DNA from: Gossypium raimondii
Taxonomy: Eukaryota; Streptophyta; Magnoliopsida; Malvales; Malvaceae
Assembly: GCF_025698545.1 (NCBI RefSeq)
Contig: NC_068569.1
Location: forward strand, 21,018,001 to 21,082,000
Reading direction: 5' to 3'
Length of the DNA: 64,000 nt
The position numbers and the translations under genes are program-made. The notes under the pieces are model-generated. The model did no database searches and had not been told where the DNA came from. It worked only from the letters and a program-made list of their open reading frames with translations. Positions 3,701-56,952 of this stretch are shown here, one piece after another. Within the stretch, counting starts at the first letter, position 1, and each line of letters starts with the position of its first letter.

Positions 3701-4368
3701 CTTTAATCAAGCTATGAATTCTATTGTTGCTAGTAAAGCCATGCCATACACAAGTTATGTACCCAACCTACTAGCTATCAGCTCAATCATTTTTAGGGCA
3801 TAAGCCTGCACTTATATCAAAGTACATGAGTTACATACGCATTGTCAGTGACTAACTCAGGATTTAGGTAAGTCACATCATGAACATTACAAGTGAATCA
3901 ATTGACAAATGAATTCAGAATTAATTCAACTTAGGTCCAATCCAATGTATCATTCTTCCAATGAGTACATCTATGTCTCTATCCGTAGAGTTAACTGCTC
4001 CAATAGCCATGGCTAGCCATCTCCCTAATTGGAATTGTAAAGACATAATAATCCTTCTAAGTATTTGAACCAAATGTTCGCTTTGATTCTTTTACGAGAT
4101 TACGAACTGGTTTAAATTATCTACTGAAGTAAGTTATCTTTCTCGCAATGTAAACATTCTTACCGTGCCACTTATCATCAGTTTGAATTTAGACAATCAA
4201 TAAGCTAATATTTGCTTGTCACAATTTCACTATGTAAGCAAAACATGAAAGACAAAAACATAAAAGATATAATAGTGAAATGTGAAATTAACCTTATCTA
4301 TTTATTAATCGTTCAAATACATAGAAAACAGTTATATGTTTACTACAATATGGACATATTTTCCAACA
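710..4368 (-). mobile_element. Possible solo LTR / LTR-retrotransposon remnant
   Basis: The stretch has short inverted ends: TGTTGGAAGG at 710 and TTTTCCAACA ending at 4368, the TG...CA form of an LTR. Read on the minus strand it would start TGTTGGAAAATATGTCC. I find no gag or pol reading frame inside and no matching 5-bp duplication (GAAAT on the left, ATCAT on the right). At 3.66 kb it is long for one LTR, so it may contain later insertions, for example the GC-richer block at 2440-2905. A pair of unrelated LTR ends is the main alternative. Strand is inferred from the resemblance of the 4368 end to copia-type LTR starts. Confidence 0.35.
2440..2905 (+). other. GC-rich island with an unrecognised 128-codon reading frame
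   Basis: Base composition changes sharply from the AT-rich surroundings. The stretch is open in several frames, including 2472-2858 on the plus strand (128 codons) and 2522-2791 on the minus strand. None of the translations resembles a family I know, and overlapping open frames are expected in GC-rich DNA. It may be part of the surrounding LTR-like element or a captured fragment. I do not call a gene. Confidence 0.3.
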
Positions 4369-7300
4369 ATCATCACGCCCCAAAGATGGATCATGATACA
4401 GCAATATCGTCTTAGTACAATATTCAATAATTTAAGTATTGTTTAAGATGATATAAAAAAACATTTCACATAAAGAAAAACATGATTATGAAAACAAGTA
4501 ATCTTAAAATAAGTTAGACTTGTTTTTTTTTTTAAAGAGTGATTAAAATGCTAAAGTAGGCTTCCATGAAAACCTTCTAGCTTCCAAATGTTAAGACTTC
4601 TTCATTATGTATCTGAAAAGGAAAAGGGATAAAAGAATTAACGACTATTGGTCAGTAAGTATAACCATAAGTTGTTAAAAGTATCGTTCTACTATTAACA
4701 TATATAAATGAGGATAGTTGAGAAAGAAAAAAAAAACATAAAATAATAAATCATGATACCATTTATGTTTTCAATACGACAACATCAAAGATGCTCCTAA
4801 GATTAAAGGGCGACTCAGTTATTCATCTATACATATCACTAAAACAATATATTTATCTTTTAGGAACCATTGCAAGAATTTTCTCAACAATTATAGAATC
4901 TAAAAATTGAGTTCCAGGCAACCTTACCTCGTTGGCAATGCCAATTAGCAATTCTTAGGTTGTCTCAAACTCTTTCATCCTTTACAATATAATTCTCTTA
5001 ATAAAATGGACACCTCTATGCTTTGTCTCCCATGTATTCTTCTTTGATATAGTCCCGCACTTGTATTTTTTTTTTCTTTGTAGCTTTTGATTTGGACTGT
5101 GGTAGAATTATTTGGCAGCGAAAGAACTTTATAATCCTCAAGGTAAGCTTCCATTCTTATTGCCCAAAATTGATTAGAGGAACTATTAGGATAAAACTGA
5201 TTTCAGTCTCCATTACACTCATAAATCTCTAAAGCCAATTGAAGGTAATAATGATAGCCACTTTGTGTTGCTAAGGTATAAGACAGAATAGTCACAACTA
5301 GTAGCTCTTAATTTAGATGTAGTACAATCTAAAAATAGATAGCAATAACTTTATAAATTAAAAAATCCTAAAAATCAAAATATTTGACTGAAGAATCTTT
5401 CTAGAATAGGTATGGCTTTTAATGGTTCAAAACTTTATTGATTTTATCGTGAAATAAAAATACAAGTCAACTTATTCAAGCAAATATTGAACGGATAAGA
5501 TTACTCCAGAAAAGCTTCGACTTTTGGATTACAAAAAAAAAGGAAGATGATTCTGTACTGGAGCAACTCCAAGAGGATTGAACCACTTCTCTACACATTA
5601 AGTATGAGTGTGCCCCATAATTTGATAATCAGACATCACTTTCGTAAGTGATGTTCTATAATCCATGAAGATTAACATTGCCCCATGGCCAGAAATTAAT
5701 ATTTATTCGATATCCCTACACTGTAGTTATATTGAATTTGATTATATAGAATCGAATTGGATATAAATAAAAGATTTAACTGTTTCAACTTCTATTGACA
5801 AGACTAAAACTTTATTTATTCCATATCTCACGAAGAGTAGATATCGGTTGCATGTACAGAGTGGAAATGAGTGGGACTAAATGGTGTAACCTGTCACAAG
5901 ATGGGCACTGAAAGCAGAACATATTTTCATGGAAAAATGTAGTGGTAGGCCTCACTACTCAACACTCTTGCAATTTGGCTATCGACCAACAGTGACTAAA
6001 CAGGAACACGTGCTCAATTCTTTCACAAGCTTGTGCTTCCTCAAACTCCCTCTTCATCATATTCAATCTTAATCCTGGTTTGTATGTATTCAATGTCAAA
6101 GCCTTGCTTCATCAACGACTTCATTTTTATTGTAGCTGCTTTTTGCCCTACATCCATGTCCATTGATATGACTCAGCAGATCTGGCTTGGCAGACAATGG
6201 TGGGTGATCCAGACATGTGATCCTATTTGCTTATTTGGGTTCTTCAGGTAATGGTTTTAGGGATATTAGCTCATGTGTTTAAATTGCTCTACAAGTAAGA
6301 AACTACTTTATTAGGTGCAGTTGTCAAAAGCAAATTTCAAGCCATTACAAAGATTCCATTTTTCGACATTTAAACAACGAATGTAGCACGACGTTATGGC
6401 TGCTGCAATTCGTCACGATAATATTCATTATGCTCGCAACCACGATAAACACGATGTGATTAAAAAAAAGCGTATATGATACCTAACATTCAGAAAGGGG
6501 ATGGTAAGGGATGATGACTTACATTGAAAGGAAAGTCATGGAAGCAGAAAGGAAAGAACATAACACGTTGAAAGACTTGAGGATCAGAAAGTAAAAAAGG
6601 GGAGAGGATTGAAATGATGAAGTTGCATTATTGAAGGAGGAGAGCTTACATTTCTATTTTTATATACTTTTAGTTGGAACTTTTGTACCCTTACATTTCT
6701 ATTTTTGAACTACTTTATTTAACCTCCTGTCACAATAAGCTCAAACAAGTCTAAAAACAGACTGATATTTTGAAATATCATGTGTATATGTCTATGTGAT
6801 ATCAGACAAGCTTTTTATTACTTGCACTAATTTAAAAATGACCAAAATCTAGCTCCAAAATTGGCCCTGGATTTAAGTATGGGATTATTGATTAGACCAG
6901 CTATAGGTATGTCTTCCATTTTAAGATTCCTTGCTTTTAGCCATTCATTACCATATCAGGATAAGTGGGAATTCAGCTATATGATATTTGAGTTTCAATG
7001 ATCATATTAGCAACCGTGCCTAATTTCTCTTTGGTTTCGGTTTCATAAGAAAATATGGTTAGAAATGGTGAAATGGATGACACTGTTAATGAAGAACAGA
7101 TCAAACACATTGAGATGAAGAAATCTGTTTGCTGTAGTGAGTGGTTTGGAAGGGATGTGTATACGTAGAGGTCTTCCTTCAAAAAACGAATCATAAATAG
7201 GAAAGTGCCCTAGCATGGCTGGTGGAATGCTTCCATTATTGTCTGCAAACAGTGGGTTCTAAATTTCAACTGTTTGTGAAATCAAAATAAAACATGTCTA

Positions 7301-29125: not shown

Positions 29126-31814
29126 ATGTCGTTCCGAAGTATAGTTAACGATGTGAGGGATGCTTTGGGGAGCTTATCTAGGCGTAGTTTGGAGGTGAGA
29201 TTGCCTGGTCATCATAAGGGAAAATCTAATGGTTCAGTGCTTGAGTTGAATGATGAGCCCATGGTTATCCAGAATAGCCGCTGGGCGAGCCTTCCGCCAG
29301 AGCTGTTGCGTGATGTGATCAAGAGATTGGAAGCGAGTGAGAGCAACTGGCCTGCTCGCAAGCATGTTGTTGCTTGTGCTGCAGTATGCAGGTCATGGAG
29401 GGAAATGTGCAAAGAAATTGTTAGATGTCCCGAGTTCTCCGGGAAAATCACCTTTCCAGTTTCTCTGAAGCAGGTAATATCTTTAATTAATAATGATCTT
29501 TTGTCTTGCATATAATTAATTGATTAGTAATGTGTTTATTAGGGTTCTTGATCGGTATAAGCGAATGTTTGCATGTGTTTTATCTTATACAGTTGAATTT
29601 CCGATTATATACAGTGGTGACTGACAAAGTGTTCTTTTGTTAATCAACCACAGCCTGGGTCAAGGGATGGAACCATTCAATGCTTCATTAAGAGAGACAA
29701 ATCTAATTTAACTTATCACCTTTTCCTTTGCCTTAGTCCTGGTAAGCTACTCGATCAGCCTCGCCCTTAAATTCTTTGGCTTGGGCTTGAGACCATGACT
29801 TTCCTTTGGTGTTTGTATCTGTATCTTGATTCTTGGGTGCCCCTGGGCAATACTACTAATTAACTTTTATGGTTTTACCACTAATATTCTATGGTGACAA
29901 GTATAACTCTATGTGGTTAAATAATGTTTGTTTGTCTGTTATTATCTTGTTTCTTAAGATGCTAATATAGCTGCAAAAAGCATCCTACAACTGCGGTACT
30001 AATTTTTTGACTCGCTATCTTTCTCCCTTTGTTGGCATAAATACATCTTCTAGCTGTTGGGGTAAATACTTCTTGATTATCAGTAAGTTGAAAGTTGAGA
30101 CCTTGTCAGTCTGCTTTCATTTGATTTTCTTGTTGATTCCTCCGGTCTAGCTAAGTTTTAACTGTTTTGACAAGACAATCTTTTCCACTAGTGACTCTAA
30201 AAGTTCACTTTTGTCAAATTTAGAGCCACTTGATTCAGAAGTTGAGAGCCTGTTGAGAAAAAAAACATTATTCTCATCTTTCTGTGATGAAATCTCCCCA
30301 AATACTCGTTTGCTACAGCTCCTGTTATTTCTTTTGGCAAATGCATGATTTCTTTCTGCAAGTTAGACAGTTTGGTTCCAAGTATAAGTGTAATCTGGCT
30401 ATGAGTAGATTTTCTGTTGTCATCCTATATGACCTGTGGGTTAGCTCTGTTATGCAAATAGAATTCTCATCTTCAAGTTTGAAGTTTATAGCTGGTTGTT
30501 TACTTCAAACTTTTAAAAAATCCATGTATACATTGAACCGGGTTCAAATGTCATTCTCTGCTGGAATAAGCTGAACCTATACATGGATCTCTGTGCAACT
30601 TAAATAGTGTCTTGTTGGTCATCTTTGCTTCATTGTGGCCTGGGATCATTGTCATTGGTATATATATCTTCTTTAATTTCCCTGCTGCTAGGTGAATCAT
30701 TTCTTTGATTTTGTTTCCTTAATTCTAACTAGCTGTAGATAGCAATTTATCACGGCTTTAGCTGTCTGGTGTACTATTCTGACCGGCTTGCGTATGGAGA
30801 ACAATTACTTGCTTTCAATTTACCATTTGTAATTGCGTATCTGACCTTAATCTTCTATATTTCTCATTGCAGCTTTGCTTGTTGAAAATGGGAAATTTCT
30901 TCTTTCTGCAAAACGGACCCGTAGAACTACTTGCACAGAGTATGTAATCTCTATGGATGCAGATAACATATCCAGATCTAGCAGCACATACATTGGAAAA
31001 CTCAGGTGGGATATCTAATTCCTAAATAATCTATCTATCTACTTGCAGCGAATACACTGTTAAAGAGATTCTTATCCCAATTTTTATATGTTATTTTTGC
31101 AACTTCAGGTCCAACTTTCTTGGTACCAAATTCATAATTTATGACACACAACCTCCATACAACAATGCTCAGCTTTCACCACCTGGCCGAAGCCGAAGGT
31201 TCTATTCGAAAAAAGTCTCCCCAAAGGTTCCCACCGGTAGCTACAACATTGCTCAGGTTTCATATGAGCTAAATGTCCTAGGTACTAGGGGACCTCGTAG
31301 GATGCATTGCAGTATGTACTCAATTCCTGCCTCAGCTGTTGAGCCAGGTGGCATTGTCCCTGGTCAACCGGAGCTTATCCCTCGATCCCTTGAAGACTCA
31401 TTTAGGAGCATCTCTTTCTCAAAGTCAATTGACAACTCATCTGAGTTTAGTAGTGCCAGATTCTCAGACATTGTTGGAACCCGTGATGAAGAGGATGAAG
31501 GGAAGGATAGGCCATTGATACTCAGGAACAAAGCACCAAGATGGCATGAACAGTTACAGTGTTGGTGCCTGAACTTCCGGGGACGTGTAACCGTTGCATC
31601 TGTGAAGAATTTTCAGCTGATTGCTGCAAACCAACCAGCAGCCGGAGCGCCAACACCGTCGCAGCCAGCCCAATCAGACCACGACAAGATAATTCTCCAG
31701 TTTGGTAAAGTTGGGAAGGACATGTTTACCATGGACTACAGATATCCACTGTCAGCATTTCAGGCATTTGCCATCTGCCTGAGCAGCTTTGACACCAAAT
31801 TGGCATGTGAATAG
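29126..31814 (+). CDS. Tubby-like F-box protein (TULP), four exons
   Basis: Exons: 29126-29473, 29654-29741, 30873-31005 and 31109-31814 (stop TAG). They total 1275 nt, giving 424 aa, with all borders GT/AG and in frame. The N-terminus begins [20 protein letters not shown] as in plant TULPs. An F-box follows at about residues 52-107 ([36 protein letters not shown]). The Tubby domain then runs to the C-terminus with [64 protein letters not shown] and the family ending FDTKLACE. The F-box is expected to bind SKP1/ASK proteins in an SCF ubiquitin ligase, and the Tubby domain binds phosphoinositides at the plasma membrane. Plant members act in ABA and stress signalling. The region between the two halves of the Tubby domain is an acidic/Ser-rich linker, as usual. 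It looks intact. Confidence 0.96.
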
Positions 31815-32784: not shown

Positions 32785-33140
32785 CTTTTTAGTTCTCTAT
32801 TTAATTTTGTCATTTTTTAGCTCTTATATTTGTATTTTTTATCAAATCACTTCAAAATTGATGTAAAATTAACGTTTATTAACTTTGTTGATGTGGCACA
32901 CTCGTGAATTGTCATATAGATGACATGTCATCATTTAATTAATTTTTAAAATTTTAAAAATTCAAAAATATTTTATAAATTACAAATTATTTTAAAAAAT
33001 TTTAACATTTTGAATTAAAAAATTAATTAAATGCTGACATGTTATCCACATTTATCACATCAAGAAAATTAAATAACTTTAATTTTTTCATCTATTTTGG
33101 GGTGATTTGTAAAAAAACACAAATTTAAAAACAAAAAGAA
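32785..33140. repeat. Probable foldback MITE, approximate ends
   Basis: Inverted phrases face each other, for example ATGTCATCATTTAATTAATT against AATTAATTAAATGCTGACAT. TATCAAATCACTTCAAAATT faces the complement of ATTTTGGGGTGATTTGTAAA. The arms are about 150 bp around an AT-rich centre. The tips and target duplication are uncertain. Confidence 0.5.
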
Positions 33141-33297
33141 TTAATAATTAAAATTTTTATAAAGTTTAAAAGTCGAATAAATCATTATAAATTTAATAAT
33201 TCCTATGCATAAATAATATGATTCAAATTAAATTACGACCACAATTAATTACGGTGGTAATAATGGCGAGAAACAATTTTTAAAAGTCGAATTAGAT

Positions 33298-33324
33298 TTA
33301 TTTCTGGGTCCAATGGAATTCATA
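33298..33324 (-). pseudogene. ycf2: Left remnant of a nuclear plastid insertion (ycf2 fragment)
   Basis: About 27 bases, including GGGTCCAATGGAATTCATA, match the reverse complement of the plastid ycf2 coding sequence as I recall it. They continue exactly where the plastid match resumes at 42310 beyond the retroelement. The last five bases (TCATA, 33320-33324) are the left copy of the target duplication. Alone it is too short to identify; the join to the right-hand piece identifies it. Confidence 0.75.
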
Positions 33325-34539
33325 TGTAATGACCCAAAATTCACGGGCATCGGAAAAGTATAATATCGGGCCTCCGTCTCAGTAAATTAAGTTTAAAAAT
33401 AATTATTAGAAATATTTACGAGACTATTTGTGCGTTTAATTAGGTTTTAGATAGGTGTTATGAGTAATTAGCAAAAAGGATTAAATTGCAATAGAAGTGA
33501 AAGTTTAATTATAGATTAAAGGAAAATAATAGGGACCAAATGGGCAATTAAGCCACATTTGGAGGATGAGGCGGCATAACATTGTAAAAATCTTAGATTT
33601 TTATTATAAAGTATATTATTAAATTAATTATATTATAAATATTATATTAAGAAATAAATTAAATAAAGACAAATGTAAGGTGATAACTTAATACAAGTGT
33701 ATAAATAAAATACATACACTTGTAATACTTATATTTAATTACTAAATAGATATTTGTTTTAATTATTATTATATTAAAGTAATTAAATAAAAGAAAATAA
33801 ATGAAATCAAACGAAATAAAAGAAAAGAAAGAAACAAAACAGAAAAGAAACAGAATAGCATTCGAAACAGAACAGAGAAAGAAGAGAAAGAAAGAAAAAG
33901 GGAAGTAGGGTTTCTAAAGCTTGGAATTTAATTTGGTAAGTCAATTTAGCCCTTTTTTCTTAATTTTAATGTTTTAGAAGTTTTAAAACAAAGTTTTGAT
34001 GGAATTAAATTGATATTTAGAAAGTTCATAGGTTTTCAAGTATAGTTTATGTTGAATAAATTGTTGAATTAGGGATTTAATTGAATGAATTTTAAGCTAG
34101 AATTAATAAAGGGATTAAATTGTGAAAGAAGCTATAATTTTATGTTTTAGGGACTAAATTGAGGAAATTCGAAATTAAGAAAATATGCTGAAATTTTGAT
34201 AGTTAAATTTGAGTTTGGATGAAATTTAAATAGAAATAGAGTGTGAATTGAATTAGGAAAGTAAGTGAATTTAGTTAGGATTAAATTAAGAATAAGGAAG
34301 AAATTGAATAGAAATCCAATTATTTATTTTAATTTAATGCTGTAATTAATAGCAAAAATTATTGTTATTTTCGTAGCTAACAAAGAGAGGCATCAGCATC
34401 AAAAGGAAAGGAGAAAGCTATCGAGGACTAAAACGGGAGATTTACGGTTTGTATTACTATAATTCAAATTATTTATTTTTAAATGTTAAATTTTAATTTA
34501 TGTGTTTAGTAAATGAAATGCGAGGTAAGTATTAATATT

Positions 34540-34541
<2 letters not shown>

Positions 34542-34595
<54 letters not shown>
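34542..34595. repeat. (ATT)n microsatellite in the left LTR
   Basis: Roughly 17-18 uninterrupted ATT units. The matching position of the right LTR carries an (AAT)n tract of about 16 units. Confidence 0.95.
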
Positions 34596-34910
34596 GATGA
34601 GTGAGAATTAATTTGAATAGTTGATATGAATTAATATTTGAATTGTTTGTTGATTGAAAGTGGGAAGTGAATTTAAATCGAATAGTGACTGATATTAAAT
34701 TGAATGGAAATGTATTGAATTGTGAAAATGTGTGAATTGCGGATTAATTATTGATTGAAAGGTGGAAAAATGATTGAATTGAAAATGTGAGAAATTGCGA
34801 TTGAATTGGGATTATATGAGATTTAAATACCCTATTAACTAGTCGGGCTGAGTCGGATATAGTTGGCATGCCATAGGATTGGAAGAGTTCAGGGATACTT
34901 CGACCTCGAG

Positions 34911-35047
34911 TCGATGAGACACTGGGTGTCACTATATTTCTTTGGATAGATTCGATGAGGTACTGGGTACCAACTTTCTTGACTTTGCCGATGAGACATC
35001 GGTGTCAACTCTCGCTTCGAACTATCCGATGAGGCACTGGGTGCCAT
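34911..35047. repeat. Four short hairpin repeats in the left LTR
   Basis: A motif CGATGAG followed by a small hairpin occurs four times. The stems are GACAC-TGG-GTGTC (34918), GGTAC-TGG-GTACC (34959), GACA-TCGG-TGTC (34995) and GGCAC-TGG-GTGCC (35033). The paired bases change on both sides together. The corresponding right-LTR copies (about 40580-40730) are altered in the loop and inner stem. Confidence 0.6.
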
Positions 35048-35986
35048 TCTGGTGTGTTTGGTTGGATCCGTGTATCCGCCAAAGTCCGAGTTTTGTTAAT
35101 AGGGTAAATGATGAAATGATAAACCGAACGAGTTGGTCAAACAAGCTACTGAAATGAAACGAAAAAGTTGAACTGTGAATTGAAATGTGATATGAGATAG
35201 AGGAATGAACCTAAGGTTCATGATTTGTTCAAACTCAAATTGTGGATATATGATATTGGTTGATGAATTGCTATTGTTGAGATATTGAATTTAAATTGTA
35301 CATATGAATTATGCATTACATGTTTAAATATTGTTATAATTTGAATTATGGTAATACCACTGAGTATGAAATACTCAATTGCACATTGTTTCGTCTTGGT
35401 CGATAGAAGTTAAAGGTCCCGGTTCAGCATCCAGACTAATCCCGACTTCAGCATAACTTTGGTGATGTATATTTTCTTTGGTAAATGAGGCATGTACATA
35501 GGATGTGTATAAAGATTATTATGTTTAATATAAATGGTTAAAATGTTAGTATTATAAGTTTAAGATTTATAATGAATGAAGTTTACCTAATTTGATTTAT
35601 TTATTGTTTTGTTAAATTTAAATTAATATCATGTAGATTGAGTTTGATTAGAAGTATTTAAAATAGAAAATGAGAACGTGAAATGAATTGGTTGATTTGG
35701 TTATATTTGGAAATGTTATGAATTTTAATTGCAGGGGGTTGTATGTAAAAATAAGTCAAAGTGCTACCGAAATTTTAAAAAATATATATATTTAAAAGAA
35801 GAAATTTAAAAAATAATAATAATAAAAATTTGAAAGAAGTCATTTAGTAAAATTTATATGACTTTATGACTCTTTTGTATATGTTTGTTAATTGTTTATG
35901 AATTATTTATAGATTATCTGATATGTCCGGTAATGCCTCGTAACCCTGTTCCGGCGACGGTTGGGGTTAGGGGGTGTTACAGTTGT

Positions 35987-35998
35987 TGGTATCAGAGC
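35987..35998 (+). other. Primer-binding site, initiator tRNA-Met type
   Basis: TGGTATCAGAGC, the complement of the 3' end of plant initiator tRNA-Met, lies five bases after the LTR end at 35981. In the right arm the corresponding stretch (about 39645-39660) is changed to a sequence that no longer matches. Confidence 0.85.
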
Positions 35999-36130
35999 TA
36001 TCAGGTTTAGCCGATTCTCGGCCTAAATCGAGCTCAAAATTGAGTCTAGATGTACATGCCACTGTTGAGTCAAACTGAGTCGGGATTTTGGATGCTGACC
36101 TATTTGTTTGTTTTGTTTTATAGATCAAAG

Positions 36131-37396
36131 ATGTCTGAAGAAAGAATAAATGATACTGATGAAAGAATGCATACTGAAGATAGAGAATTAGATGAAACAG
36201 AATCTGCTGCACCGAGTGTGAATTCGTTAGGTAACCAACCTCCTGATGTAGAACGGGAAAATGTTAAATATAGAGATGAATCTCAATTACTTAGAATTAT
36301 AGCTGATGCACTACAAAGAGTAGCGGGGACTACTCCTACTACGACTTCAGTACCTACTCAAAGACGGGCCCCGATAAAAGAACTGAGAAAATATAGTGCC
36401 ACTGAATTTATGGGTCTAAAAGGAGTCGATCCATCCGCAGCTGAAAATTGGATGGAGTTGACTAAGAGAATTTCTGACAGTTGGACCTGTGCCCAGGAGT
36501 GTTTAATCTGTGTTGTATCGTTGCTACAAGGGGAAGCCTATTTATGGTGGGAATCAGTAATTCGACATCTACCAGAGAATCAGATAACGTGGGATCTATT
36601 TTAGAAGGAATTTCAAAAAAATATATTGGAGAGATGTATATCGAAGATAAGAAACAAGAATTTTTAATGTTACAACAGGGCGATATGTCAGTAATAGATT
36701 ATGAAAGAGAATTCTCGAGACTCAGTAAATATGGCTCCGAGTTTATCCCGACAGAAGCTGATAGTTGTAAAAGATTTTTACGGGGTTTACGAGATGAGAT
36801 CAAGGTACAATTAGTATCTCATCGGATCACTGAGTTAGTAGATTTGATTGAGCGGGCTAAAATGGTGGAACAAGTTCTGGGCCTCGATAAAAAGACTGAA
36901 AGTGTTAAAGTAATTGGCAAACGTACGGGAACTACCAGTTCAAATCCTCAGCCGAAAAGACCAAAGGAGTCTCAAGGTGGTTGGAGATCTAGTTTCAAGA
37001 TCAGACAGAGGCGGTAGAAGTAGAGGAAGACAAACGACAGTATCTACTGGTAGTGTAAGAGGTCCTTCTCGAGAAATAGAAATTCCAGACTGTCAGCACT
37101 GTGGAAAGAAACGCAGAGGGGAATTCTGGAAATTAACTAGAGGTTGTTTTCGATGTGGTTCTACAGACCATTTCATTAGAGACTGTCCGAAAGCTGATAG
37201 TACTACACCCGTGACATCACAGAGATCGGTATCTACTGCTAGAGGCAGAGGGTCAAGTAGAGGTAGCTTGGTTTCAAGGAGAGGAGGTAGTAGCAGGAGC
37301 AGTGATATTGGTACCCAGCAGTCTGAAGCTAAAGTACCCGCCAGAGCTTATGTGGTCAGAACACGAGAAGAAGGCAACGCCCACGATGTAATGTAA
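36131..37396 (+). pseudogene. Retrotransposon gag, left arm, broken
   Basis: Translation from MSEERINDTDERMHTE shows a Ty3/gypsy gag. The retrotransposon gag domain includes EAYLWWESV, YIGEMYIEDKKQEFL and the DMSVIDYEREFSRLSKY region, followed by a CCHC zinc knuckle (CFRCGSTDHFIRDC, near 37148-37189) and an Arg/Ser/Gly-rich tail. The frame is broken by a TAG at about 36602, where the right arm has CAG, and by a frameshift near 36910-36960 between the gag domain and the knuckle. It cannot give a full product. Confidence 0.88.
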
Positions 37397-37799
37397 TGTA
37401 TATTCTTACTATATTACGAACCTATTTATGCTTTAATTGATCCGGATCTTCACACTCTTATATAAATTCAAAATTAGTTGAATTGGGAAAGTTTAATTCA
37501 AGTATCTAGGTATTTGTAGAAGTGTCGAGTCCGTTGGGGCAAAAGCAGTATAGTGAATCGGGTTTGTCAGAGATGCCCGTTAATTATACAAAATAAAACT
37601 TTTCCTATTGACTGTTGATTATGCCATTTGGGATTTTGATATATCTTTGAGGATGGATTGGTTATGCGAACACGAAGTGGTATTGGATTGTTATAAAAAA
37701 AATTTTAGTATTCAGACAGAAGACGGGGACAGAATTGAGGTGAAGGGTATTCGTACTAATGGACCTTTAGCTGTGCTGCTCTGATTTGATCAAACATTA
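37397..37799 (+). pseudogene. Retrotransposon aspartic protease remnant, left arm
   Basis: Frame-broken translation gives ALIDP followed out of frame by SSHSYINSKL, the place of the retroviral-type protease active site. FDIYLRMDWLCEHEVVLDC (degenerate version of the ILGMDWL region) and DGDRIEVKGIRTNGP follow. The similarity ends at the palindrome centre, so the reverse transcriptase region never follows. Confidence 0.65.
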
Positions 37800-37875
37800 C
37801 CGGCTTGACTCTTGGCTCTTACCGGCTTAGTATTAACGATGATGGAAGTTTGTTAGAAGTTAAGAGTCAAGTTTC
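37800..37875. other. Centre of the palindrome
   Basis: About 76 bp separates the exact pairing GATTTGATCAAACATTA (ending 37799) from its complement (starting 37876). Within it CTTGACTCTT and AAGAGTCAAG still pair, leaving a unique loop of around 46 bp. The small inverted piece CCGG...CCGG occurs on the left side only. Confidence 0.8.
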
Positions 37876-38289
37876 TAATGTTTGATCAAATCAGAGCAAA
37901 GACAAATGGTTCATTAGTACGGATACCTTCACCTCAATTCGTCCCCGCCTTCCGTCTCAATACTAAACTTCTTTTTATAATAATCCAATACCAATTCGTG
38001 TTCGCATAACCAATCCATCCCCAAATATATATCAAAATCCCCAAATGGCATAATCAACAGTCAATAGGAAAAGTTTCATTTTGTATAATTAATCGCATCT
38101 CTGACAAACCCGATTCACTAATACTGCTTTGCCCCAACGACTCGACACTTCTACAAATACTCTAGATACTTCGTAATTAAATTTTCCCAATTCAACTAAT
38201 TTTGAATTTATATAAGAGTGTAAAGATCCGGATCAATTAAAGCATAAACAGCTCAAAATATAGTAAGAATATACCACATTACATCGTAT

Positions 38290-39516
38290 GCTATTTCTTC
38301 TCGTGTTTCGACCACATAAGCTCAAGGGTACTTTAGCTTCAAACCATCGGGTACCAATATCACCGCTTCCTTCTACTACCTCCTCCCTTGAAACCAAGCT
38401 ACTTATCCGACCTCCGCCTCTAGAAGAGATACCGATCTCGTGATGTCACGGTGCAAGATTATCGCCTTTCTGGACACCTCTAATGAAATGGTCTGAGAAC
38501 CACATCTAAACAACCTCTAGTTAATTTCAAAGATTCCTCTCGTGTTTCTTTCCACAAGGTCGATACCGAATTTCTATTTCTAGAAGGACCTCTTACATCG
38601 CCAAAGAGATACCGCTGTCTGCCTTTCCTCTACTTCTACCGCCTCCGTCTCGATCTCAAATTGGATCTCCAACCACCTTGAGACTCCTTTGGTCTTTTCG
38701 GCTGAGGATTTGAACTGGTAGTTCTGTGACGCTTGCAATTACTTTAACACTTTCAGTCTTTTTATCGAGGCCTAGAACTTGTTCCACCATTTTAGCCCGC
38801 TCAATCAAATCTACTAACTCAGTGATCCGATGAGATACTAACTGTACCTTGATCTCGTCTCGTAAACCCTGTAAAAATCTTTGATATAATACTGCTTCTG
38901 TCGGGATAAACTCGGAGGCATATCTACTGAGTCTCGAGAATTCCCTTTCATAATCTATTACTGACATATCGCCCTGTTGTAACATTAAAAATTCTTGTTT
39001 CTTATCTTCGATATACATCTCTCCAATATATTTCTTTTGAAATTCCTTCTGAAATAGATCCCACGTTATCTGATTCTCTAGTAGATGTCGAACTACTGAT
39101 TCCCACCATAAATAGGCTTCCCCTTGTAGCAACGATACAAAGATGATGAAACACTCCCTGGGTACAAATTAACCATCAGAATTTTCTTAGTCGACTCCAT
39201 CCAATTTTCAACATGGATGGATCACTTCTTTTAGACCCATAAATTCAGTGGCACCATATTTTCTCAGTTCTTTTATCGGGGCCCGTCTTTGAGTAGGTAC
39301 TAAAGTCGTAGGAGTAGTCCCCGCTACTCTTTGTAGTGCATCAGCTATAATTCTCAGTAATTGAGATTCATCTCTATCTCTAACATTTTCCCGTTCTACA
39401 TTAGGAGGTTGGTTACCTAACGGATTCACACTCGGTGCAGCAGATTCTGTTTCATCTAATTCTCTATCTTCAGTATGCATTCTTTCATCAGTATCGTTTA
39501 TTCTTTCTTCAGACAT
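38290..39516 (-). pseudogene. Retrotransposon gag, right arm, broken
   Basis: This is the reverse-strand copy of the left gag, starting MSEERINDTDERMHTE at 39516. The frame is lost near 39208 (after EFMGLKEV). It is open again from 39132 to 38656 (LLENQITWDLFQKEFQKKY and DMSVIDYEREFSRLSRY regions) and lost again before the zinc knuckle, whose cysteines are not kept in frame. The breaks differ from those of the left arm, so the arms decayed independently. Confidence 0.85.
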
Positions 39517-39664
39517 CTTTAATCTATAAAACAAAACAAACAAATAGGTCAGCATCCAAAATCCCGACTCAGTTTGACTCAACAGTGGCATGTACATCTA
39601 GACTCAATTCTGAGCTCGATTTAGGCCGAGAATCGCTAAAACTCGATAGCTCGATATTAATAAT

Positions 39665-41041
39665 CGTAATACCCCTAACCCCAATCGTCATGAATAGGTT
39701 ACGAGGCATTACCTGACATATCAGATAATCTATAAATAATTCATAAACAATTAACAAATATATACAAAAGAGTCATAAATTGATATAAATTTTACTAATT
39801 GACTTCGTTCAAATTTTTATTATTATTTTTTAAATTTCTTCTTTTAAATATATATATTTTAAAATTTCAAAAAGACTTCGGCTTATTTTTACATACAACC
39901 CCCTACAATTAAAATTCATAACATTTCCAAATATAACCAAATCAACCAATTCATTTCACGCTCTCATTTTCTATTCTAAATACTTCTAATCAAACTCAAT
40001 CTACATGATATTAATTTAAATTTAACAAAACAATAAATAAATCAAATTAGGTAAACTTCATTCATTATAAATCTTAAACTTATAATACTAACATTTTAAC
40101 CATTTATATTAAATATAATAATCTTTATACACATCCTATGTACATGCCACATTTACCAAAGAAAATATACATCACCAAAGTTATGCTGAAGTCGGGATTA
40201 GTCCGGATGTCAACCGACCTTTAACTTCTATCGATCGCTGCATTTCGAAATAATCAGACACCGAGTATTTCATACTCAAGGTATTACCATAATTCAAATT
40301 ATAACAATATTTAAACATGTAATGCATAATTCATATGTACAATTTAAATTCAATATCTCAACAATAGCAATTCATCAACCAATATCATATATCCACAATT
40401 TGAGTTTGAACAAATCATGAACCTTAGGTTCATTCCTCTATCTCATATCACATTTCAATTCACAATTCAACTTTTTCGCTTCATTTCAAAGAGCTTGTTT
40501 GACCAACTCGCTCGGTTTATCATTTCATCATTTACCCTATTAACAAAACTCGACTTTGGCGGATACACGATCCAACCAAACACACCGTAATGGCACCCAA
40601 AGGCCTCATCGGATAGTTCAAGCAATAGTTGACACCAAGTTGTCTCATCGGCAAAGCCAAGAAAGTTGGTACCCAAGACTCATCGAATCTATCCGAAGAA
40701 ATATAGTGACACCAAAGGTCTCATCGACTCGAGGTCAAAGTATCCTCGACTCTTCCAATCCTATGGCATGCCAACTATATCCGACTCAAATTCGACTAGT
40801 TAATAGAGTATTTAAATCACATATAATCCCAATTCAATCGCAATTTCTCACATTTTCAATTCAATCATTTTTCCACCTTTCAATCAATAATTAATCCGCA
40901 ATTCACACATTTTCACAATGCAATACATTTCCATTCAATTTAATATCACCACTATTCGATTTAAATTCACTTCCCACTTTCAATCAACAAACAATTCAAA
41001 TATTAATTCATATCAACTATTCAAATTAATTCTCACTCATC

Positions 41042-41094
<53 letters not shown>

Positions 41095-42309
41095 AATATT
41101 AATACTTACCTCGATTTCATTTACTAAACACATAAATTAAAATTTAACATTTAAAATAAATAATTTGAATTATAGTAATACAAACCGTAAATCTCCGCTT
41201 TAGTCCTCGATAGCTTTCTCCTTTCCTTTTGATGTCGATGCCTCTCTTTGTTAGCTACTTAAAATAACAATAATTTTTGCTATTAATTACAGCATTAAAT
41301 TAAAATAAATAATTGGATTTCTATTCAATTTCTTCCTTATTCTTAATTTAATCCTAACTAAATTCACTTACTTTCCTAATTCAATTCACACTCTATTTCT
41401 ATTTAAATTTCATCCAAACTCAAATTTAACTATCAAAATTTCAGCATATTTTCTTAATTTCGAATTTCCTCAATTTAGTCCCTAAAACATAAAAATTATA
41501 GCTTCTTTCACAATTTAATCCCTTTATTAATTCTAGCTTAAAATTCATTCAATTAAATCCCTAATTCAACAATTTATTCAACATAAACTATACTTGAAAA
41601 CCTATGAACTTTCTAAATATCAATTTAATTCCATCAAAACTTTGTTTTAAAACTTCTAAAACATTAAAATTAAGAAAAAAGGGCTAAATTGACTTACCAA
41701 ATTAAATTCCAAGCTTTAGAAACCCTACTTCCCTTTTTCTTTCTTTCTCTTCTTTCTCTGTTCTGTTTCGAATGCTATTCTGTTTCTTTTCTGTTTTGTT
41801 TCTTTCTTTTCTTTTTATTTCGTTTGATTTCATTTATTTTCTTTTATTTAATTACTTTAATATAATAATAATTAAAACAAATATCTATTTAGTAATTAAA
41901 TATAAGTATTACAAGTGTATGTATTTTATTTATACACTTGTATTAAGTTATCACCTTACATTTGTCTTTATTTAATTTATTTCTTAATATAATATTTATA
42001 ATATAATTAATTTAATAATATACTTTATAATAAAAATCTAAGATTTTTACAATGTTATGTTGTTTCATCCTCCAAATGTGGCTTAATTGCCCATTTGGTC
42101 CCTATTATTTTCCTTTAATCTATAATTAAACTTTCACTTCTATTGCAATTTAATCCTTTTTGCTAATTACTCATAACACCTATCTAAAACCTAATTAAAC
42201 GCACAAATAGTCTCGTAAATATTTCTAATAATTATTTTTAAACTTAATTTACTGAGACGGAAGCCCGATATTATACTTTTCCGATGCCCGTGAATTTTGG
42301 GTCATTACA
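39665..42309 (-). repeat. Right LTR of the palindromic element (inverted)
   Basis: This is the reverse complement of the left LTR, about 2.65 kb. The outer 260 bp differ from the left LTR at about five positions by my count, all transitions. Its inner end is more altered (CGTAATACCCC where TGTAACACCCC is expected). Confidence 0.85.
41043..41091. repeat. (AAT)n microsatellite in the right LTR
   Basis: About 16 AAT units at the position mirroring the (ATT)n tract of the left LTR. Confidence 0.95.
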
Positions 42310-42637
42310 TCATAGGTATAGGAATAAGCCCTATCAAATAGAGAATTTTTCTTTCGACCATATTTTGATTGTTAATACGATATATAAGGACCGCTACTAC
42401 AAATAGTACTACACCCTTAATCGTGAAATATCGATTGCTTGTTGAACCCTGTAAATTGTGTGAAAGTAGAATACTCCAAATTCGGGGGTCCAAGAGTTTT
42501 ATAAAACGTTCTTGGTGGAAAAGAATGTGAATGAAAGATCCCACTGAATTGAATTGGGTCCATGAATATAAGAAATAGTGAGAATTCTTAATCTCTCTCA
42601 ATTCGAAAATTTAGGATTTGAATTGATGTCCTTTCAT
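42310..42637 (-). pseudogene. ycf2: Plastid-derived ycf2 5' end, nuclear copy
   Basis: The minus strand reads the beginning of plastid ycf2, with the start codon at 42637. Recognisable phrases are [52 protein letters not shown] and YLIGLIPIP. Codon 9 (W in the plastid protein as I recall it) is TAA, and a short in-frame repeat near the start is missing. It is cut by the retroelement and resumes as 27 bp at 33298. It is a non-functional plastid insertion (NUPT). The first five bases are the right target duplication TCATA. Confidence 0.9.
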
Positions 42638-42725
42638 TGATTCCTCCTAAATTGCATTGATTTATCCTAAATATTTCATTTCAATCGGAATTTGGTTATT
42701 CACCACGTACGAGGATCCCCACTAA

Positions 42726-44811: not shown

Positions 44812-45444
44812 CTATTTCTCAATACTAGACATCCTAAACTGCACCCTCCGTTTTTTCATAAGATCGAATTCATCAATGATAGAATCTGTTGAAAATTCTT
44901 GAGCTATATCTTTTTCGATGTATGCCACCAAGTAAGTTGAAAGAAAATCATCCTCTATTTTGTTGCAAAACCTTGTCTTCACAATTTTCATGGCTGAAAA
45001 TGCTAGTTCGATTGTTGCAATAGACACGAGAAGAGTTGGCACAAGACGAATAATTCTATCAAGAAGAGGATAAATACTTGACTTATTTGTCTTAGCTAGC
45101 ACTTGACACAACTTGGCAACTATAGAAGTTTTCTGCAACTCTGTGCTTTGATGAGCATCGAGTTGAAAACGCTCCAATTGGATCTTCATGTGTAGCTTTT
45201 CTTGCTCCGTAAAATAGTCCAGATAAAAATAATTCATAAGCTTGCAAATATCTTCCACTTGAAAAGTTTTGTGATTGTCGCGTGGATCCAAAGCGGAGGT
45301 AAGAACAAGTAACTCCACTACCTCATTAAAGCGAGAATTCATTTTTGTTAGCAATGAATTGGTACTAGCAATGAATATATCAAAACCGATACTGATGCTC
45401 AATTGTGAGGTTATCTCTTGGATGCTAGTATGGATATGGGACAA
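44812..45444 (-). pseudogene. hAT-family transposase, C-terminal fragment
   Basis: The 210-codon frame carries the hAT C-terminal dimerisation domain near its end: IYPLLDRIIRLVPTLLVSIA, TIELAFSAMKIVKTR and DDFLSTYLVAYIEKDIA. The preceding part resembles the region before that domain in plant zf-MYM/TTF-type hAT proteins (LLVLTSALDPRD, ICKLMNYFYLDYFTEQEK). The N-terminal zinc finger and catalytic core are absent upstream, so this is a truncated transposase or a fragment of a domesticated relative. The frame is undisturbed over its length. Confidence 0.8.
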
Positions 45445-47485
45445 ATCAATTAATTTTAAAATTTGGCTTTAAAGTCCATATTAGACCTTTAAATTTAGTC
45501 ATTCAAAGTCCATCATACATTAATATCTGATTATTATTATTATTAAAGTTATATAATTAAAAACAGAAAAATAATTTGTTAATATAAAGTATTACCTTAT
45601 GGCTTAAAAAGGTGAATTTTATGAAATACAATTTGATCAAGGGGGATGGATGTTATACAATGTGGACACCAAATTTAAAATACATGATAATTTATATATA
45701 AAATTCAAAAATCTGAAAATTCTAAGCCCCCTAGATCCATCCTTGTTAACATCCATCGTCCCCTTGTCTCTGTGGTATAGTTAAGATTATAGTGCCTTCG
45801 AAATGTTAATTGTTCAATTTAGTCTCTTTTAACTTTTATTTAAACGTAACAATTGCAATTTTGGCCTTTTTATTTTAAAGTTTAAAATTCAATTTAAGTC
45901 ATTTTGATACGAATTTTTTTAACTTTGGCCTTCCAAATTTTTTTAGTTTTATCTCGATTGCTATCACATAACTCTAGACTTTGCCCCTACATGGGTTAAA
46001 ATTGGCCAGATTAAAATATATGAACTAAATCCACAACTTATTCATAGTCATAAGGATTAATAGTAGAATTTAACCACTAATTAAAAAAGTGTTTTGTTAA
46101 AATTTTTTGATGTTATTCCTAAACTACCCATGAAACCCTCCCTCAAACCCTTTAAATAGAATGATATAATCATGTTCATACTAACCCTTTCTAGTTATTG
46201 CAATAATAATGATGTAACTTATTTAGTATTAAAATAATTATTAATACAGGAAACTGGGTGACCTCTGATAATAATAAAAATTGAAACTTGGCAATGAGCT
46301 GGGTTGGTGTGTGAATGGAAAATGATATTTAAGAATGTAATATTTTCTTTTGAAATTTGGGGAGGAGAATAGAATTTTCCTAAAATTTATTGGTAAAAAT
46401 ACGAGATTAAATTGTATACATATTTAAAAATTATCTTTATGGATTAATTAATGATCAAAATCTAAATCAAGTGCACAATTATTATTTTCAGAGATAATTT
46501 TTTCTAATTGATATAATAACATATGTAGTCATCAATATTTACACATTCTATTACATTAATCCTAATCCTTAAAATTACAAAATTTATTTAATATATTTAA
46601 CCCAAAAAGCTATCTAGGTTTTTCATCTCCTTCGTTGCTTTCACTAAAAATCATCACCTTTCTTTTTACACCTAACCATTTTTCGTTTTATTTTATTAAA
46701 AGCCATCAATTATTTCTTTTCTAAACAAAATCCATACCCTTCATTTTCCTCTCTTCTTATAATTACTATTAGAACGGATTTGTTTGAATATCCAAAACTA
46801 GAAATCAAGCCCCTTGAGATCTTTTAAACCCATCACCTCATATTTCGATCCTTGATTTGGCCTATCACTCTTCGAATTTGGCAAAAATTGCTTCAACGCT
46901 AAGTTTTTGGTTTGACCCGAAGCCTTGGGGTTCGATTAAGGATTGTGGTGAGCTCAAGTCAGTGGCTATGGGGGTTTGAGTGGCTTCGACTTGTTGTTAA
47001 TGGTTTTTGATTTTTTTTCTAACACCCGAAAAGAATTTCTATGATGTGGCCGACAGTGGTACCATTAATTTTATTTTGGGTTTAAAAGAAATTAAACAAA
47101 TAATAAATTTTATTTGATGAAAATTTAAATAAATTAAAACTTAAATGACATGTTACATATCTGTTGATTTTTTAATCTACATGTCAATTCTTGATTGGTT
47201 AGACTTGCTACATAATTAAAAAAGAAAATTTGTTTATGGACTAAATTTATAAAATTTATAAATATGGAGGGTTAAATTTGTTAAATTATTTATATATGAC
47301 CAGAATTATAGAAATTATTAGTATTGAGAATGCCATTATTTTGGTTAACGATTTATGAAGAGTGACCAAAACAAAATCACTAAAAACATTATTGATGAAA
47401 TTGAAAGTTTTATAATTTGATGACCTAAAAGAAATATATTGATAGTTGGGTGATTAATGCTATAGTTCACCCTAAAATACATATA
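45445..47485. other. AT-rich intergenic DNA, nothing recognised
   Basis: No supported reading frame. A somewhat less AT-rich part at 46600-47040 may be decayed gene or transposon sequence, but I cannot assign it. Confidence 0.4.
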
Positions 47486-56005: not shown

Positions 56006-56259
56006 TTTTCCAATACAATAGCATAGGAGATCCTTACATTCATACCAGTTCAAAGCAAGATTGCTGCAATCTTATGCTAATACTACTAAAGCAGAATATC
56101 TTGTAAATAGAAGAGGAAAGGAAAATTTTGAGAAATGAAAATAGCCCTCTCTCTCCTTATAAACAGATTCTATTGTGGTTGTCAGACTCTGCATTTTTAG
56201 TGGAGAAAGAGACCAACAGAATACTGGGGTAAAAATTTTGACCACGGAGGAAAACCAAA

Positions 56260-56952
56260 ATGGAAAAACAGATTCAAAAATTCCAAAATGAGGTATCTTT
56301 TGTATCAATTACCATAGCAACACTTATCATCACCTTCCTCTTCCTCCAAACCCCCAAAACATGCATCCCACCAAGTGCTCTCCAAAAGCCTCACTTGAGA
56401 TTCCCCAACTCGACCTGTGACTCTACCCCTCGCCACCACCTTCCTCTTTCCAAGAAGAATGCCCGCCTCTGGTCCTCCAAATCTTGGACGACCCGGGTCT
56501 CTTCCTTTGTTCAATTCTTCACCCAACTGTACCAAAATGGTCTCTTAAAGAACCACTCCAAGGTCCTGTGTGTCTCTGCTGGGGCTGGCCATGAGGTCAT
56601 GGCTCTATCCAAAATGGGTCTTAAGAATGTTATAGGTGTTGAACTGATAGAATCCTTGCCTTTGGTTAGCAGGGCCAATCCCCATAATCTTCCCTTCTTT
56701 GATGGGGCTTTTGATGTTGCCTTCACTGGTCATTTGATGGCGGCCTTGTATCCCTTGCGGAATGCAGAGGAGATGGAGAGGACTGTCAGAAATGGTGGAG
56801 TGTGTGTGGTGGTTGTGGATGAATGTGGTGAGGAGGAAGTCAAGGAGATTGTTAGGTTGTTTAGGAGGTCTCGGCTGCTCAGCTCTTCTGATGTTACCTT
56901 GAATGGAAGGAGAGTAACAAGAATTATAATGAGAAAAAAAGCTTCTGATTAA
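56260..56952 (+). CDS. Membrane-anchored SAM-dependent methyltransferase-like protein
   Basis: A single-exon frame of 230 aa. Residues about 12-30 are a hydrophobic segment (VSFVSITIATLIITFLFL), likely a signal anchor. A Pro/Ser/Thr-rich stretch follows to about residue 65. The rest is a methyltransferase type 11 fold: glycine motif VLCVSAGAGHEV (102-113), the acidic end of the second strand in VIGVELI (124-130), and FFDGAFDVAFTGHL (146-159) as the strand that normally follows the SAM pocket. AEEMERTVRNGGVCVVVVD (169-187) corresponds to the late helix and strand. The glycine motif has Ser-Ala-Gly-Ala-Gly instead of the usual Gly-x-Gly start, a variation seen in this plant subfamily as I recall it. 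Substrate is unknown, with Golgi or ER location suggested by the N-terminal anchor. Base composition is coding-like and there are no breaks. Confidence 0.88.
   Translation: MEKQIQKFQNEVSFVSITIATLIITFLFLQTPKTCIPPSALQKPHLRFPNSTCDSTPRHHLPLSKKNARLWSSKSWTTRVSSFVQFFTQLYQNGLLKNHSKVLCVSAGAGHEVMALSKMGLKNVIGVELIESLPLVSRANPHNLPFFDGAFDVAFTGHLMAALYPLRNAEEMERTVRNGGVCVVVVDECGEEEVKEIVRLFRRSRLLSSSDVTLNGRRVTRIIMRKKASD

Follow-up and report, generated by a model that had tools for sequence, protein, structure and literature searches.

A palindromic Ty3/gypsy insertion with U3 at both ends in Gossypium raimondii, and like-end insertions among other copies of its family

The palindrome and its target site

The 64-kb stretch of the Gossypium raimondii genome analysed here (contig NC_068569.1, positions 21,018,001 to 21,082,000; hereafter the window) contains at 33325-42309 a palindrome of 8,985 bp, in which two 5' halves [long terminal repeat (LTR), gag and protease] of one Ty3/gypsy element face each other. 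In a BLASTN alignment of 4,516 columns the left arm (33325-37838) and the reverse complement of 42309-37862 are 93.2% identical. The outer tips both read TGTAATGACCCAAAATTCACGGGC, with U3 outward at each end. Read from outside, each arm starts with TGTAATGACCC and carries a 2.66-kb LTR ending in GTGTTACA, followed by the primer-site region (which we take to be of the initiator tRNA-Met type), a broken gag and the protease (Table 1). The direct arrangement of LTRs, with U3 at one end of the element and U5 at the other, is not found in this copy, where the LTRs are inverted. The 2-kb flanks outside it show no match to one another, so the palindrome ends at the LTR tips. Comparison of the arm with the whole window gave no further copy of it beyond a 69-bp scrap and short TAA-type repeats.

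The gag is of the Ty3 type, with matches to PF03732 (73.5 bits, right-arm open reading frame), PF19259 (Ty3_capsid) and PF00098 (zinc knuckle). The protease of the arms has 80% identity over 49 residues to a Gossypium hirsutum protein (P0101), the sole protein above threshold among 7 candidates. This homologue has the pol order protease, reverse transcriptase (RT), RNaseH, integrase, with RT, RNaseH and integrase H2C2 domains and a chromodomain match under the Pfam cut-off. Judged by these domains, the sequence of the palindrome originates from a Ty3/gypsy LTR retrotransposon. The initial annotation held that neither arm contains pol; this is correct for the RT, RNaseH and integrase domains, all of which are absent, and incorrect in that the arms do have the protease region, along with a scrap of RNaseH-integrase linker.

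Directly outside the U3 tips the sequence TCATA occurs at 33320-33324 and again at 42310-42314 (the chance of a 5-bp identity is about 1 in 520 at the composition of the window). The two flanks come from a single piece of plastid DNA, encoding Ycf2, and the likeness stops about 25 bp to the left of the element; the palindrome thus breaks a ycf2 5'-end plastid insertion (33300-33324; 42310 onward) about 25 bp from its end. When one TCATA is removed the flanks form an open Ycf2 frame over the junction (LIPIPMNSIGPRN); the one stop is far upstream, the junction itself has none, and the rejoined flanks align with the solved Ycf2 8xku_D with no gap at the junction (E 1e-53). Ycf2-domain proteins (PF05695) account for 100 of the 107 candidates at E <= 0.001 in the protein database, a count made without alignments in which not all entries span the junction. 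Because the flanks with one TCATA removed read straight through as Ycf2, the window insertion is a single clean integration, in which nothing was lost or gained except the 5-bp duplication. Intact LTR termini, a 5-bp duplication and an empty site together are those of an integrase-type insertion. Since the target is a fragment of a plastid gene whose sequence is known, the insertion can be resolved at the level of single nucleotides. An exact-pattern search of viral and genome contig collections gave no match to the empty ycf2 site, as expected for plastid DNA.

The arm alignment and the empty site bear out the initial annotation as to the two facing halves, their U3 tips and the TCATA duplication. 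Its further proposal, that the palindromic DNA with its two U3 ends existed before integration and went in as one unit with a 5-bp duplication, is likewise supported, and 5 bp is also the length of the duplication in seven ordinary copies of the family (see below).

Farther along the nuclear plastid DNA insertion (NUPT), beyond 42310, lies a stretch that resembles plastid trnI-CAU; ARAGORN called no tRNA genes in the window. Just left of the plastid piece is an imperfect inverted repeat (32800-33152, 71% over 377 columns), which at a guess is like a miniature inverted-repeat transposable element.

Table 1. Features of the palindrome and its borders (window coordinates).
Feature	Position	Strand	Basis
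Left end of plastid ycf2 insertion (NUPT); last 5 bp are the left TCATA	33300..33324	-	Flank comparison
Left LTR, U3 tip outward (TGTAATGACCC...GTGTTACA)	33325..35981	+	Termini same in ordinary copies
Primer-binding-site region TTGGTATCAGAGCT	35986..35999	+	Comparison with copies
Left gag pieces (capsid part, zinc knuckle), with frame breaks and one stop	36131..37396	+	PF03732, PF00098
Left protease region up to IRTNGP, frame-broken	37397..37765	+	80% over 49 residues to P0101
Joint J: protease GGACC onto antisense pol CCTTTAGC, 2-nt overlap CC	37764..37765	.	Copies L009-L018
Pol piece, inverted, from the RNaseH-integrase linker EPRVKPVMFDQIRAAQLK; ordinary copies have it about 1.5 kb downstream	37764..37813	-	Copy comparison
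Turn K: 10 extra nt GGCTCTTACC separating inverted from sense pol	37814..37823	.	Copy comparison
Same pol linker, sense (RLSINDDGSLL...MFDQIRA); part without inverted partner is the hairpin loop; J mirror at ~37908-37909	37824..37909	+	
Right-arm protease and gag, mirroring left	37910..39516	-	Arm alignment, domains
Right LTR, U3 tip outward	39665..42309	-	Arm alignment
Right TCATA (42310-42314), then ycf2 5' region of NUPT	42310..42640	-	Ycf2 alignment

The centre and the two arms

The centre of the palindrome consists of two successive inverted joints, denoted J and K, both with microhomology. Each arm leaves the protease at ~37764 (mirror ~37909) and passes into inverted pol, and the turn lies at ~37814-37823; a simple head-to-head join at 37799/37876, where the initial annotation had placed the centre, is thereby ruled out. 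Ten copies (L009-L018) were fetched for matching the pol piece of the centre; several of them match the LTR in parts only. The match of the left arm reaches arm coordinate 4438-4441 in six of the ten, 4431-4434 in three and 4064 in L015, and the next 46-50 bp of the arm lie inverted in pol, about 1.5 kb farther on, in all ten (by selection). At J, protease ACTAATGGACC (read in nine copies) meets antisense pol CCTTTAGC (read in ten) with CC common to the two; the precise extent of the overlap varies where a copy has a different protease reading. Both the inverted piece and the sense piece that follows it derive from the RNaseH-integrase linker (P0101 residues ~691-720). At K the antisense strand runs ...TTAATACTAAGCC, then GGTAAGAGCC, then sense AAGAGTCAAGCCGGTAATG. 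The same strand of the ordinary copy L013 has CGGCTT 42 nt ahead of AAGCCG, and DNA folding of L013:958-1026 gives this stem at -2.84 kcal/mol, so that K is located at the minimum-energy hairpin of that strand. A 3' AAGCC primed on GGCTT would add GGTAA, the first half of the 10 extra nucleotides, and re-priming would give the rest; this detail is tentative because the bases near K are unreliable. J occupies the same position in both arms, which indicates that it preceded the doubling, and was found in none of the 39 other loci listed.

The search covered a 750.8-Mb assembly of 281 contigs. The 201-nt centre was matched in full only at the window locus, on both strands (best 40 of 82 candidates); the remaining 78 of the 80 matches are the two pol pieces standing apart, at 39 loci. 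Over its first 1,001 bp the left LTR is 99% identical to the right LTR and the next-best genomic copy is at 86% (best 40 of 2,025 candidates), on which ground different parents for the two arms were rejected; 364 alignment columns are common to both arms and differ from the majority of four other copies. The same figures bear on the notion that two separate cDNAs, each contributing one like end, integrated together and that the host joined their broken inner ends. Like ends with a duplication would also result from such an event, and it is less excluded for the two copies described below (L011 and L016) than for the window, where the J common to both arms, the 364 columns and the near-identity of the LTRs make it very unlikely.

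The U3 tip occurs 318 times genome-wide with at most one mismatch (reversed control, 0). Counted by eye over 100 tip places among the matches listed, the tips form seven neighbouring pairs on the same strand (within 12 kb) and a single outward-facing pair on opposite strands (within 20 kb), that of the window locus; 19 more places held no further pair. This is a weak screen, in which few ordinary elements show both tips (the seven same-strand pairs). L032 (C12:2595500-2604500) was considered as another outward pair and rejected, 4118-5253 being an LTR with an internal inverted piece. The palindrome shows no sign of being a transposing class and is not a new class of element; the non-autonomous class envisaged in the initial annotation has no second member in the centre search.

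The differences between the arms are unevenly placed. Left-arm triplets are kept in the right arm at 18/48 (CAG), 19/45 (CTG) and 13/27 (CCG), right-arm triplets in the left at 18/30, 19/22 and 13/18, respectively. Left-arm ACTG is kept at 9 of 21 sites, and seven of the 12 changed sites read CTTTG or CTTG. Within one base of a CG or CHG site lie 186 of the 300 differing columns vs 21% of all columns, a comparison biased by taking the sites from either arm. Set against four of the ten copies, the right arm has 214 private differences (62 of them indel columns) and the left 70 (8), with 58/241 and 18/241, respectively, at CHG columns and 80/2,809 and 23/2,809 at A/T columns. The first kilobase of the LTR, which is CHG-poor, has seven differing columns. 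At the primer site L014 has the CAG-to-CGA pattern of the right arm and L016 shares one of the two changes. These data are better explained by base-calling error at methylated sites than by neutral change after insertion, because the latter should load both arms alike. Two observations run counter to base-calling error: change at CHG is raised in other copies too (L009, 11/141 at CHG and 42/2,003 at A/T), and the density of differences tracks GC content as closely as it does CHG (Spearman 0.69 and 0.67). Dating of the insertion by raw arm divergence was rejected, since the differences follow CHG/CG context.

The poor look of the right-arm bases could also suggest that the inner palindrome is an artefact of assembly or reading. 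Nanopore reading of inverted duplicates is known to suffer, with accuracy dropping in the second arm (PMC7229812), which would bear on the present assembly if it was made from nanopore reads. The U3/duplication junctions, however, lie in different flanks of one ycf2 site, which makes the like ends independent of the inner assembly, and a fold-back read would also have mirrored the flank. We give an artefact a very low probability.

Like-end insertions in other copies

Both ends were examined in ten pol-bearing copies, which had been picked from the 39 other loci before anything was known of their ends; the pol-based set excludes U3-U3 copies lacking pol. Double labels (L011/L031, L016/L035, L017/L036) name one element each. 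Seven copies are ordinary, one is U5-U5, one is U3-U3 and one has ordinary ends without a matching duplication. The seven ordinary copies (L009, L010, L012, L013, L014, L015 and L018) have U3 on the left, U5 on the right and a perfect 5-bp duplication (ACAAG, TCGTC, CATTG, TAGTT, GAAAT, ACATG and ATATG, respectively). They resemble the window copy in LTR termini, primer-site region, gag, protease and length of duplication, and differ from it in the orientation of their ends, the window copy having inverted LTRs with U3 at both ends and no RT, RNaseH or integrase domain. In the two cases compared, L003 and L005 (elements of L009 and L010), pol was followed to the last P0101 residue, with frame breaks.

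L011/L031 (C11:53726933-53733693, minus) is bounded on either side by a U5 end, with ATTTC flanking each. In place of its 5' LTR it carries an inverted LTR end of about 475 bp, which is joined to the gag leader at the 14-nt ATGTACATGCCACA, a sequence that in L016 occurs in the leader and, inverted, in the LTR; the left terminus is one base off the usual terminus. L016/L035 (C6 ~18.894-18.904 Mb) is pol-bearing and has a U3 tip on both sides with CTTCT outside both; its 3' LTR runs for ~958 nt, followed by ~12 extra nt and then by the first 1,009 nt, inverted, ending in the U3 tip. The end pairs tried numbered 28 (duplicates included), for which ~0.05 chance duplications are expected at 1 in 520, and both aberrant pairs had one. 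Because their joints lie at different places, the window, L011 and L016 represent three separate events. Together they point to like-end integration as a recurrent product of this retrotransposon family.

Rearrangement of ordinary insertions into like ends, by inverted duplication, nested insertion or LTR inversion, is another explanation, and such changes do occur in the family: L032 has its internal inverted LTR piece, and L017/L036 (C1 ~6.39 Mb) has ordinary U3/U5 ends with unmatched flanks (AGAAA vs TAAAC), having perhaps recombined after insertion. To account for the like ends, however, rearrangement must have stopped exactly at the LTR terminus beside an intact duplication on three occasions, and in the window it must have left the empty site without loss or gain, and we therefore consider it highly improbable.

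Elsewhere, the window contains an exon of a Tub-family protein (31026-31814, +; PF01167), a methyltransferase-domain protein (56242-56952, +; PF08241) and a remnant with a weak hAT dimerisation-domain match under the Pfam cut-off (44812-45468, -). From 59900 to the window end at 64000 runs a long minisatellite-like array (units of ~72, 111, 129 and 240 bp) in which several frames of the + strand stay open for hundreds of codons; the one frame tested had no Pfam match.

Origin and significance of like ends

The strands made in LTR reverse transcription have defined 5' termini, U3 for the plus strand and U5 for the minus strand. We propose, with a probability of roughly 0.65, that the 3' end of a strand undergoing reverse transcription jumps or folds back and copies a strand to its 5' LTR terminus, and that integrase accepts the two like ends. 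The growing 3' end would fold back on its own strand or jump to a same-sense strand packaged with it; the product would then have the same LTR end on either side, and integrase would join them with the usual 5-bp stagger. U3-U3 products (window, L016) would arise from plus strands and the U5-U5 product (L011) from a minus strand. In the case of L016 and L011, a free strong-stop DNA could have served as the second strand, and a like end in duplex form would then arise directly; the stretch copied in the window exceeds strong-stop DNA, so that fold-back or a second long plus strand would be needed there. Genomic RNA starts at R, and its 5' end lacks U3 nucleotide 1. Since each arm begins at U3 nucleotide 1, the strand copied back would be plus-strand DNA rather than RNA.

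Applied to the window, a plus strand extended past LTR, gag and protease would have jumped at GGACC and copied a plus-sense template backwards from the RNaseH-integrase linker, giving J. About 90 nt later its 3' end (...AAGCCG) would have paired with the CGGCTT 42 nt back in the same strand, giving K, after which the whole strand would have been copied back to the U3 tip to yield a palindrome with two U3 ends. Conversion of the hairpin to a two-ended duplex was possibly primed by a second plus-strand strong-stop DNA, or the duplex may have been made between two strands. Integrase would be required in trans, as the initial annotation had also supposed.

Several points weigh against this scheme. 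The K hairpin is unremarkable (z -0.89; 38 of 200 shuffled sequences give as good a fold), and base errors leave the 10 nt at K uncertain. The window demands two consecutive inverted joints, and no single-arm relative bearing J was found among the loci listed. A hairpin has one open end, and the step to a two-ended duplex is not observed. Finally, an empty site is proved for the window copy, and for L011/L031 and L016/L035 the argument is from 5-bp duplications.

The joints themselves would also suit an origin outside the particle, in which host repair (polymerase-theta-like snap-back or template switching on broken linear cDNA) makes like-ended molecules that are then used by integrase. The short overlaps (2 nt at J, 5-6 nt at K) fit alternative end joining, as do the few added bases, in part templated, at K and the L035 joint. 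Snap-back synthesis by the host usually yields short products, however, and in the window a copy-back of ~4.4 kb would be needed, followed by integrase acting on the repaired molecule; copying exactly as far as a 5' LTR terminus, as in all three cases, is to be expected of reverse-transcription strands. We regard host repair as unlikely, and prefer the origin from reverse-transcription strands set out above.

The inverted terminal repeats of the window element recall DIRS elements and foldback DNA transposons. DIRS elements use a tyrosine recombinase and make no target duplication, whereas the window element has one of 5 bp (the recombinase itself was not searched for); the repeats of foldback transposons are recognised by a transposase, unrelated to LTRs and multicopy, whereas those of the window are LTR-gag halves found once. 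Yeast Ty multimers, retroviral snap-back molecules and autointegration products are aberrant cDNAs from in or near the particle; none of them is known to us as a genomic insertion in which both LTR ends are alike and the target is duplicated. Complex LTR insertions in Triticeae are aberrant and were attributed to template switching (PMC1950507), as proposed here; the portion of that article searched contains none of the terms 'inverted', 'palindrom', 'opposite orientation' and 'head-to-head'. Among the titles listed in a literature search none names like-end insertions, and we do not claim that they are unreported.

The proposed mechanism predicts which ends should pair, with plus strands giving U3-U3 and minus strands U5-U5, and places the expected joints at inverted microhomologies. 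Inverted arms in plant assemblies may hold context-dependent base errors that spoil dating by LTR divergence. Whether like-end integration is a regular minor output of the family, a strand copied to the 5' LTR terminus giving U3-U3 or U5-U5 DNA that is faithfully inserted, we judge to be evenly balanced; such a reading fits two of the ten copies examined at both ends and the window copy, and if it is true, annotators who require direct LTRs would miss like-end copies. These insertions are natural evidence against the textbook rule that an LTR retroelement must integrate through one U3 end and one U5 end, and suggest that inverted template switches can end in stable insertions.

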